Shown piece by piece: positions 130 through 57,415 of a stretch of DNA of 64,000 nt. A program made the translations under genes and the position numbers. Position 1 is the first letter of the stretch. The number at the start of each line of letters is the position of its first letter. The notes beneath the pieces were generated by a model. The model searched no databases, was not told where the DNA came from, and saw only the letters and a program-made list of their open reading frames with translations. Source of the DNA: Antedon mediterranea (taxonomy: Eukaryota > Echinodermata > Crinoidea > Comatulida > Antedonidae); the NCBI RefSeq assembly GCF_964355755.1, contig NC_092676.1, positions 26,332,288 through 26,396,287 of the forward strand, read 5' to 3'.

Positions 130-6528
<6,399 letters not shown>

Positions 6529-51200: not shown

Positions 51201-54200
51201 CTAGTTTGATAGTGTAGACAGAGCTTAAGCCTGTTTTTATGGGTTTTATGTCATATCATATAAAAAATGTATAGATTGCAATCATGAATATTGCATTTTT
51301 CAAAATAGATTTGATGGAAAACTTGATCTTTGGGGGAGGGGGGGCGGACTTGCTTTTACAGGATATTCATCTCCTGAAGGTTAAAGATCTAAATTTTTTT
51401 TTCGTTTGTATTTTCTACATTTTGGCAACAAGAAGGTGTTCACACTCTTCTTTCTTTCAGGGTATAACTGTGTTCAATTGATGGCAGTCATGGAGCATGC
51501 TTACTATGCTAGCTTTGGCTATCAAGTCACCAGCTTTTTTGCACCATCAAGGTAAGTCATAGCTCCAAAGTCAATTCCACCCAAGAGGTAAACTCTCTCT
51601 ACACTATCAAACTAGTTTGACAAAAAAGTGTGATGTGCCCAAATATGCTAGTGATATGCACAAATACAGTATAGTAGTGATATGACATCATCGTGTCCAT
51701 ATATGGACTCATCACATTCTTTTTGTCACATGTTTGATAGTGTAGACAAGGCTTTATACAATTTACAAAACCTGGAACAATATTTATTGCATTGTCAGGG
51801 AATATTTTCCATGACTGAAAAAGCCCTTGTCCAAAAAATACTAATCCACAGTTGAATGAGAAGGAATCTATACATTTAAATTTCTTCTTCTTTATGTTTA
51901 CAGTCGATGTGGAAGTCCTGAAGACTTAAAGAAGCTGATTGATACAGCTCACCATCTTGGACTGGTTGTTTTCCTCGATGTCGTCCACAGTCACTCTGCT
52001 AAAAATGTGCTGGATGGTTTGAATCAGTTTGATGGCACAGATTCTTGCTTCTTCCATTCTGGTCATAGAGGTGTTCATGAATTATGGGACAGTAGACTTT
52101 TCGACTATAAGAAGTAAGTACTATTGTATAAAAATTGTGTTTAATGTATTATGCAATCCGAGAAACTTCTGGTTGATGGCCGAAGTTGTATTTTGAATTT
52201 TGTATGACGGAAATAACAAATATTTTCTTTTAGTTGGGAAGTATTGCGGTTTTTATTATCAAACTTACGTTGGTGGATGGAGGAGTTCAAATTTGATGGT
52301 TATAGATTTGATGGTGTAACTTCAATGCTTTACCACCATCATGGTATAGGTAAGACTTTAACATTTAGCATTAATATTATTATTTTAAACTTAACATGCT
52401 GGCCTTCAAATCAATTCAATTCATCAATCATTTATTTCATCAAAGGCCATACAAATAATACAGAGCATAAAATGAGGACCAACCTAAAAGTAAACTTGTC
52501 TCAGTTGGCCCTTTAACATGGTTACAAAAAATAATAAGAAGAAGTGGCAGATCTTTTTTTCTTGCATACATGCACCCTCCTTTTGTGAAAGTAATTTTTG
52601 TGGATTGCATTGTGAGACATTTTTTTATCTGCAGCTTTACCTACAGGTTATAATTGTCAAATTACAACTTGTGATTATATTCTGTAATATATTATGTGTC
52701 TTTTTTCTTGTAGCATCCAGCTTTGGTGGTGGATATGAGGAATACTTTGGCCTTGGTACTGACACAGAGGCACTAGTCTACCTAATCTTAGCCAATCACA
52801 TGCTGCATACGTTCTACCCAGAATGCATCACTATTGCAGAGGTGAGTTTTTCATGTTATGTTCACCTATCATGTGAAATTATAAGTTACTTTGTTTGTGG
52901 TAAAGAGGTGCTCTGCTATGTCTATGTGAACATGCCCACAAAATACATCTGTTTATCATATTAGTTATTTATTAAGTTATTTATGATGTTAAATTTAAGT
53001 TTTCTAAATTTTAGGATGTTTCAGGAATGCCAGCCTTGTGTCGACCTGTGCTAGAGGGCGGTAATGGGTTTGATTATCGTTTAGCCATGAGTATACCAGA
53101 CCAGTGGATAAAGGTACAGCAGAAATAATTACTTTAAGAATACCACATTTTTAAAAGATTTGCTACAAACAACAACCAAAGTGCTATTAGTAGTATTAAA
53201 AGTTGACACTACTAAGTTTTTATGATACTATGTTTCGTTATTAAGCTTCTGAAAGAAGTAAAAGATGAAGATTGGAATGTTGGAAACATTGTCTGGACCC
53301 TAATTAATCGCAGACACGGTGAGAAAAGTATTGCTTACGCTGAGAGCCATGATCAGGCTTTAGTAGGTGACAAGACTCTAGCCTTTTGGCTTATGGATAA
53401 AGAAATGTACACAAATATGTCAAAGATGTCTGAGTTGACCCATGTCATCGATCGTGGGATGGCGCTTCACAAGATAGTAAGATTACTTACACATGCACTT
53501 GGAGGAGAAGGATGGCTTAATTTTATAGGTAAAAACGGTTTTATTTTGTTAGTTAAATGTTTCTTTTTTTCCCATTATGTTTTCTTGTATATTATTACAT
53601 ATTATCTCTAGAATGGGGAGAGATTATGTGGTCAATCAGGTGTGTTTGTGTGTGTGTGTTTCTATATTTGTTAGTTGGCAGGATTAATACTCTAAAAGTT
53701 ATTTCCCGATTTTCATAAGATTTTAAAGGATGGTTTTATACTGTAGTTGTATGTGTATACATCATTTAATTTTCATATGCCTATGCGGAGGTTTGCGCTC
53801 TCGGAGTGCCCTTCTAGTTTTTATTTTGTAAAGCGACTTAAAACTACAAAAAATGCTCTTTTTGTGTAAGGTCCATACTGCTTTTTGGCTAAATAAATGT
53901 GAACTTTAATTGAATATTATGCTCTACAATATTTTTAATAAAAGACTTAAAATAATCACATTTAGGTAACGAGTTCGGACATCCAGAGTGGTTAGACTTC
54001 CCAAGACCAGGCAACGGCAACAGCTTCCACTATGCCAGACGTCAGTGGAATGTGGTTGATGATTCTAATCTTCGGTATGGGTACTTAAACGAGTTTGATG
54101 CCGCTATGAATAAATTAGAAGAGCAATTCCATTGGTTGAACAGTCCACAGGTAGTAAATTTATTCAATCAATAATAAATATACTTCCATTTAGGAGCAAA

Positions 54201-56018: not shown

Positions 56019-56233
56019 ATATCATCAAAGAATATATATCACAAGAATGAGTAATCCGCGATTTTCCCTGTAACAGTAATATTGTCCATGTGGTAGGGCG
56101 CCGCCATAAGTGTGGATGTATCTGGGATGTATACAACTTTTTGTGAAGGTTTCACTAATCAAAAGCTGGACCACCGGAGTATTTTCCGATGATAAAAATT
56201 TTATCAACTACATGCCAACATCATGTTAAATAC

Positions 56234-57415
56234 TGTTAAGACAGTGGAACCGTAATCACGTAGCCATAACATCGGCAGGGGTTCGAGGCTCACGCACTCC
56301 ATGGTTCTGGTGGTAGAACGAGTCTTCTCGGATAAGGACTATAAACCGTAGGTCCAGTGTACATGTTATGCGCGATCTGAACGATTTGCACAATTTGAAA
56401 TTGCGCAAAAAAATCCTTGCGCAATTTGAATTGAAACATGTGTTTCAAATTGCGCAAGCAACGTATTAAATTGCGCAAGTAATCTGCAAATTGCGCAAGG
56501 TTTTTCGACAGATTGTGAAATCATGCACACCCATATTTTTATAGTAATTTCTAAGAATGATTCAAAATTAAAGATAAATATCGCATTTCCTTATTTTAGT
56601 AGTGCAAATATTGTTATAAGTTAGCATACCGTCGAAGAACCGACGAAGGAAAACGAAGCGGTGGTGTTCCACCAGGCGGGCGCGGCGCGGGCGGCCGGCT
56701 ATACTACTCTAGCCTAGCTAGGGTCTGGACTATAGTACTGACTAGGTTACATGGCCTAGCTTAAACTAATATTAAAAACTTAATTTTTACATTTATTTTG
56801 ATTTATTTCAAGTTACAGTGATAATATTATTTAATTGTAATAATAAATGTTATGTATTTATTATACACATGTTATCTTCGCATTTATTATGTTTTATTTT
56901 GAGTTATTTAGTTTCCAATAAATTATTATAATACCGATTGTCTGGTAGAATTTTGTTGCGCAATTTGAAAATTTACAGTTCGTTTTCAAATTGCGCAAAG
57001 GTGTCATATTGCGCAAGAACTATCTTGCGCAATTTACAAATTGTGCAGCGCAATTTAAAATTGCGCAAAGATTTTCTTGCGCAATTTGAAATTGCGCAAG
57101 TTGATTGCGCAATTTGAAATTGCGCAAAAAAATCCTTGCGCAATTTTGAATTGCGCAAGAATTCTTTGCGCAATTTCAAATTGCGCAAGGATTTTTTTGC
57201 GCAATTTCAAATTGCGCAAATCGTTCAAATCGCGCATAACATACACAACTTGCTCGTGTGCACTTTAAAGAACCTAGTACATCTTTCGAGACGAGTAGGG
57301 GGGTACCCCGGTGTAGTAGTACATCACAGCCACTGATCACCAACTGGGCCCTCTGGGAGATCAGACGTCTTTGACTGAAGAGGTCACCCAGTATAAAGAT
57401 AAAACAAACAAACAA
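56234..57415 (+). mobile_element. tRNA-derived SINE inside arm A, interrupted by another element
   Basis: The first part (56234-56363) starts GTTAAGACAGTGGAACCG, has the B-box-like GGGGTTCGAGGCTC and continues GGTCCAGTGTACA. The second part (57242-57415) resumes TACACAACTTGCTCGTG and ends in AAACAAACAAACAAA. Together they match the intact SINE at 59534-59815. The 5' end lacks the A box. The middle (56364-57241) is a separate insertion. Confidence 0.8.
56364..57241. mobile_element. 878-bp element with about 20 TTGCGCAA palindromes
   Basis: The ends are inverted repeats beginning TGTTATGCGCGAT and continuing GAACGATTTG, AATTTGAAATTGCGCAA and AAAAAATCCTTGCGCAA. The host SINE sequence TACA is duplicated at both edges (56360-56363, 57242-57245). 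Both ends are packed with TTGCGCAA separated by short TTTGAAA-type spacers: about five on the left, about sixteen on the right. The interior is unique AT-rich sequence with a GC-rich patch near 56640-56700. No transposase. Confidence 0.85.

Follow-up and report, generated by a model that had tools for sequence, protein, structure and literature searches.

We analysed a 64-kb stretch of DNA, referred to here as the window, in which a transposon of 878 bp occupies positions 56364-57241. The inverted ends of this copy are 95% complementary and are bordered by TACA on both sides, and the boundaries proposed in the first-pass annotation are therefore exact. Elsewhere in the window, the reading frame at 53216-53611 resembles, by eye, an exon of a glycogen branching enzyme. 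The features of the element and of its flanks are as follows:

56264-56359: left flank, part of the abundant dispersed repeat that hosts the insertion (from matches of the joined flanks)
56360-56363: left target site duplication TACA, equal to 57242-57245
56364-56430, plus strand: left terminal inverted repeat (TIR) of about 67 bp, beginning with TGTTATGCGCGAT, 95% complementary to the right arm
56368-56382, plus strand: terminal motif ATGCGCGATYTGAAC, which repeats the array unit TTGCGCAATTTGAAA in degenerate form (12 of 15 bases in the family consensus)
56386-56498: left subterminal array, by word count five exact TTGCGCAA and the mutated TTGCACAA at 56386-56393
56514-56949: middle of the element, the most variable part between subfamilies, with no open reading frame (ORF) of at least 120 amino acids
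56956-57219: right subterminal array, by word count 15 exact TTGCGCAA, mostly in inverted pairs TTGCGCAA-TTTNAAA-TTGCGCAA
57175-57241, minus strand: right TIR, which pairs with the left arm
57242-57245: right target site duplication TACA, equal to 56360-56363
57246-57345: right flank, the same dispersed repeat continued (from matches of the joined flanks)

No transposase ORF was found in the element. When the flanks were joined with one TACA, the resulting sequence matched at least 40 genomic places without interruption at 99% identity (1444 candidates). The insertion went into a copy of an abundant repeat, and the uninterrupted copies of this repeat represent a clean empty site.

A genome-wide copy search, proposed in the first-pass annotation, was performed on 354 Mb in 18 contigs. 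Matches to the 25 outermost bases of the inverted repeat numbered 388 forward and 387 reverse, and we therefore estimate the family at about 390 elements. The term transposon used in that annotation is borne out. Many full-length copies are 96-99% identical to the window element, and the 27 closest distinct copies differ on average by 0.4% from their own 880-bp consensus, a set that was picked for closeness and thus gives a date for the youngest members only. The element is typically about 700-880 bp long, nearly all sized copies fall between a few hundred and about 1100 bp, the TIR measures 67-73 bp, and every full-length copy examined has the termini TGTTA...TAACA. Short, non-coding, TIR-bearing, homogeneous and present in high copy number, the element is a young, recently mobile DNA transposon of the MITE type. 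Two unusual copies were also seen. At about 75-115 of G000:C3:37937550-37938350 (L081), a 35-bp mini-copy in which both tips are joined at GCGCA is flanked by TATA duplications and sits in a repeat whose uninterrupted copy lies at about 56120-56150 of the window; this remnant represents an internal deletion or an excision scar. At G000:C1:14184301-14194300 (L076), an intact right transposon end borders on a tandem run of about nine satellite units of about 1.15 kb each, and the left transposon end is absent within 10 kb.

Insertion sites were compared between copies. An exact 4-bp duplication was present at 23 of 27 distinct sites, one site had a 5-bp duplication and three were without an exact one. 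In the aligned targets (n = 23), a 4-bp YAWR-like core is accompanied by T (23/23), R (22/23), Y (21/23) and A (21/23), and the consensus, T-R-YATR-Y-A, is palindromic. Genome-wide, TATA precedes 79 of the 775 ends, which is 8.3 times the expectation, and TRYATR precedes 147 of them. Ginger2 transposons are described as having TGTNR ends, a 4-bp duplication, an RTATAY target and, in metazoan members, a TIR of about 50-180 bp (PMC2836005). All these structural rules of the Ginger2/Tdd group hold for our family, with its TGTNR...YNACA termini, 4-bp duplication, RTATAY target and TIR length. The target duplication of Ginger1 is CCGG or CCGT/ACGG (PMC2836005), and Ginger1 was rejected, as the duplications observed here are AT-rich and YATR-like. 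Duplications of 6 bp are typical of IS3EU/GingerRoot, and reports of IS481EU come from parabasalids only. The most likely assignment, a structural one only, would be Ginger2.

The first-pass annotation had also suggested looking for an autonomous relative with these ends. None was present among about 120 of the approximately 390 copies (our own tally from the listings) which were sized by the distance between paired ends; therefore, autonomous copies either make up less than about 2.5% of the family, or carry other ends, or have been lost from the genome. The long copies L085 (3.27 kb) and L086 (1.66 kb) proved to be MITEs with nested unrelated insertions, and L095 (5.6 kb) a MITE with a nested Gypsy gag-pol. 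Ends lacking the second palindrome were mostly MITE deletions or truncations, and L082 was a truncated end beside unrelated sequence. The Ginger2/Tdd transposase combines an H2C2 zinc finger with a DDE core and is devoid of GPY/F and YPYY. Our search with the integrase family PF00665 was saturated by Gypsy, the loci read being Gypsy-type pol, and an approximate Ginger2/KRBA2-like query revealed no strong relative, returning only Gypsy and the loci L083 and L084. Both of these were rejected as partners, since the transposon ends of the MITE family are absent in the stretches read. L083 (G000:C1:17900400-17904900) carries at 2199-4349 a 716-aa frame with an integrase core and an OTU protease domain and with no reverse transcriptase; introns seem to lie upstream of this frame. 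Score-identical frames of 512/716 aa recur across the genome, and this family is predicted to be a transposon of Ginger1 type of which many copies look intact. L084 (G000:C7:21686700-21690100, minus strand) contains an integrase-like gene with an OTU domain, one TGA break and a C-terminus that is F-box-like by eye.

The most conspicuous property of the element is its array of TTGCGCAA words. The window contains 20 exact words, a number reached by no shuffle, against 0.58 expected, and all 20 lie inside 56401-57219, within one element; the "about twenty" palindromes and the TTTGAAA-type spacers reported in the first-pass annotation are thus real. The array is asymmetric, with six words on the left (one of them mutated in the window copy) and 15 on the right, 21 in total in the consensus. 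In the 880-bp consensus, words of the right array mostly start 13-17 bp apart and those of the left one 15-33 bp apart, the last 11 words on the right being separated by 13-16 bp (mean 15.1), and the spacing is not phased with a helical repeat of 10.5 bp per turn. As its basic unit the array has an inverted pair of 23 bp, TTGCGCAA-TTTNAAA-TTGCGCAA, which, with only the central base allowed to vary, occurs 1692 times in the genome vs. 0 for the reversed control. Of the 21 consensus words, 20 are flanked by TTT on a single side. Most copies hold 9 to 21 words (five in L041 and four in the short L045), and whole array units have been gained and lost between copies. The tip of the transposon, ATGCGCGATTTGAAC, agrees with the array unit at 12 of 15 bases (p = 0.0003 in mononucleotide shuffles and 0.005 in dinucleotide shuffles), therefore the array resembles a repeated end-recognition motif.

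It had been proposed that each end can fold into many small cruciforms. This needs refining: a lone 8-base TTGCGCAA does not fold (0 kcal/mol), whereas the 23-base TTGCGCAA-TTTGAAA-TTGCGCAA reaches -10.1 kcal/mol. A strand of the right array folds at -120.1 kcal/mol in comparison to -56.8 kcal/mol in shuffles (z = -17.9). Such strong folding results from the inverted arrangement of the units, and array folding alone is no evidence for cruciform function.

We also assessed conservation of the words. In the 27 closest copies, the per-site change after insertion was similar for words (0.0033) and non-words (0.0041), thus there is no sign of hosts preserving the words in individual copies. CpG changes in these copies affected 5 of 42 sites inside TTGCGCAA vs. 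17 of 52 elsewhere in the element, a weak hint at protected or unmethylated words. Between subfamilies, divergence was 0.8% for words, 1.6% for spacers and 3.4% for the middle, and in the most distant subfamily the respective values were 2.1%, 5.2% and 7.3%. The difference between words and middle is significant (p = 8e-8), the one between words and spacers is not (p = 0.08 and 0.05). Loss of the words without bias from copies that keep the termini, which the first-pass annotation had named as the outcome contradicting its reading, was not seen between subfamilies, where words diverge least. Since the copies are related and the alignment of repeats is ambiguous, this conservation is a support, short of proof.

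The identification of the word as a C/EBP core site was correct: in solved complexes C/EBP alpha/beta occupy TTGCGCAA, although their binding to TTACGTAA is stronger by a factor of 1.4-3.8 (PMC10941009). The host genome encodes C/EBP-type bZIP exons (L090 at C8:3372323 and L093 at C8:28400381) and several PAR/NFIL3-type basic regions, all typed from sequence. TTGCGCAA occurs 11,438 times in the genome, and the share of the transposon family is estimated at about 58% (390 copies x 17 words). A tandem array at G000:C1:920068-938511, unrelated to the transposon ends, has one TTGCGCAA per about 1.53 kb. The symmetric C/EBP-type 10-mer used for comparison, RTTGCGYAAY, is fitted by only 2 of the 21 consensus words. 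The sequence identity and the host C/EBP-type genes are all that speaks for a possible role as bZIP decoy or portable enhancer.

Taking these results together, we consider it probable that the element is a non-autonomous cut-and-paste MITE moved by a Ginger2/Tdd-type transposase and equipped with subterminal arrays of a recognition motif. The transposase, acting on the element in trans, would be of the integrase type and most probably a member of Ginger2/Tdd. The putative recognition motif is the asymmetric unit TTGCGCAATTTNAA, a degenerate form of which makes up the very tip. Several transposase molecules assembled on the array may bring the two ends together; cleavage would follow, and insertion at T-R-YATR-Y-A sites would then generate the 4-bp duplication. 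Words would be gained and lost in steps of about 31 bp, which changes the length of an array and leaves the words themselves intact. A short motif is repeated near both ends, as in En/Spm- and Ac-type arrays, with 5-6 words on the left and 15 on the right. Among the three functions considered in the first-pass annotation (transposase-binding platform, decoy for bZIP factors, portable enhancer), the platform appears to be the best-supported one, because the tip is a degenerate unit and the words are one-sided and kept between subfamilies. The data demonstrate the family with its ends, duplication, target preference and youth, the variation of the arrays and the one-sided unit; the Ginger2 identity of the transposase and its binding to the words are what we infer from these observations.

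The structural classification leaves some room for a cut-and-paste MITE of another, non-Ginger2 superfamily, with TGT...ACA ends and a 4-bp duplication acquired by chance. The family is classed by structure alone, no Ginger2 transposase was found, and the autonomous partner is missing in the approximately 120 sampled copies; however, the joint presence of TGTNR ends, a 4-bp duplication and an RTATAY target is specific, and neither the targets of Ginger1, nor the 6-bp duplications of IS3EU/GingerRoot, nor the parabasalid-only IS481EU fit, which makes this alternative unlikely. We consider it very unlikely that the array is recognized by its shape, with long hairpins or cruciforms as the substrate for mobility or amplification by a replication-fork or hairpin-based route and with a word that matters only for pairing. 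Pairing tolerates compensatory change, yet the word is constant in 1692 pair units, and the 4-bp duplication with its symmetric target is a mark of a DDE integrase-type transposase; the very strong folding of the right-array strand and the 35-bp mini-copy, whose tips are joined at the shared GCGCA as palindrome-provoked deletion predicts, speak for recognition by shape.

The array may also have evolved, or have been kept, through binding of host C/EBP-type bZIP proteins to TTGCGCAA; the element would then serve as decoy or portable enhancer, or would in this way be expressed or targeted in certain cells. The identity of the word with the C/EBP alpha/beta site, the two host C/EBP-type exons along with the PAR/NFIL3 types, and the family's large share of the genomic words are consistent with such a platform. 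However, the conserved unit TTGCGCAATTTNAA is one-sided and departs from the symmetric 10-mer, the tip, which no transposon can do without, has a variant form of this unit, the words of inserted copies are not clearly more conserved than the rest, and TTACGTAA is the more strongly bound site. The one-sidedness of the unit and its match to the tip point to the transposase ahead of C/EBP, and we regard the host-binding explanation as improbable. Even less credence is given to the possibility that the recognition unit converged on a perfect C/EBP site and that the recent burst rewired or titrated host C/EBP binding; if this were true, more than half of all TTGCGCAA words in the genome would owe their position to one recent burst, which set them down as dense arrays at about 390 sites. 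The family represents a natural experiment, with hundreds of young, datable insertions, most of them bearing 9-21 perfect C/EBP words, in a genome with C/EBP-type genes. Compared with the C/EBP site of the solved complexes (PMC10941009), the likeness is the identical 8-bp word and the difference is that a transcription-factor site there is here part of a one-sided transposon-array unit.

Returning to the transposase-binding model, the view that no described element has such a design was mistaken, as CACTA and Ac/Ds carry subterminal arrays of short motifs to which a transposon protein binds. In En/Spm, the protein on the subterminal repeats is TNPA, and in soybean Tgmt* stem-loops are formed by 4 repeats on the left and 24 on the right (PMC2613891). 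The Ac transposase shows cooperative binding to AAACGG repeats (PMC3260210). As far as we found, the subterminal array design is known from plant transposons and has no description for Ginger2-type ones. Ginger2/Tdd MITEs such as Ginger2-1N1_NV (252 bp, TIR 52 bp) resemble our family in TGTNR termini, TIR range, 4-bp duplication, RTATAY target and the occurrence of short non-coding derivatives in animals, but the text of the Ginger paper makes no mention of subterminal or palindromic arrays and states the excision mechanism of the related Ginger1 as unknown (PMC2836005). CACTA elements (En/Spm, Tgmt*) share asymmetric subterminal arrays with direct and inverted units and stem-loops (4/24 in Tgmt* vs. 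6/15 in the MITE), as well as a GC-rich and an AT-rich part in each motif, which in CACTA is bound by TNPA; they differ in their CACTA ends, 3-bp duplication, unrelated transposase and other motif (PMC2613891). Maize Ac/Ds (hAT) is similar in having many transposase-binding AAACGG copies within 200 bp of each end and hundreds of non-autonomous copies, and differs in its 8-bp duplication, 11-bp TIR and non-palindromic motif (PMC3260210). If our interpretation is right, the subterminal array design of plant CACTA and hAT transposons extends to an animal integrase-type, Ginger2-like transposon.
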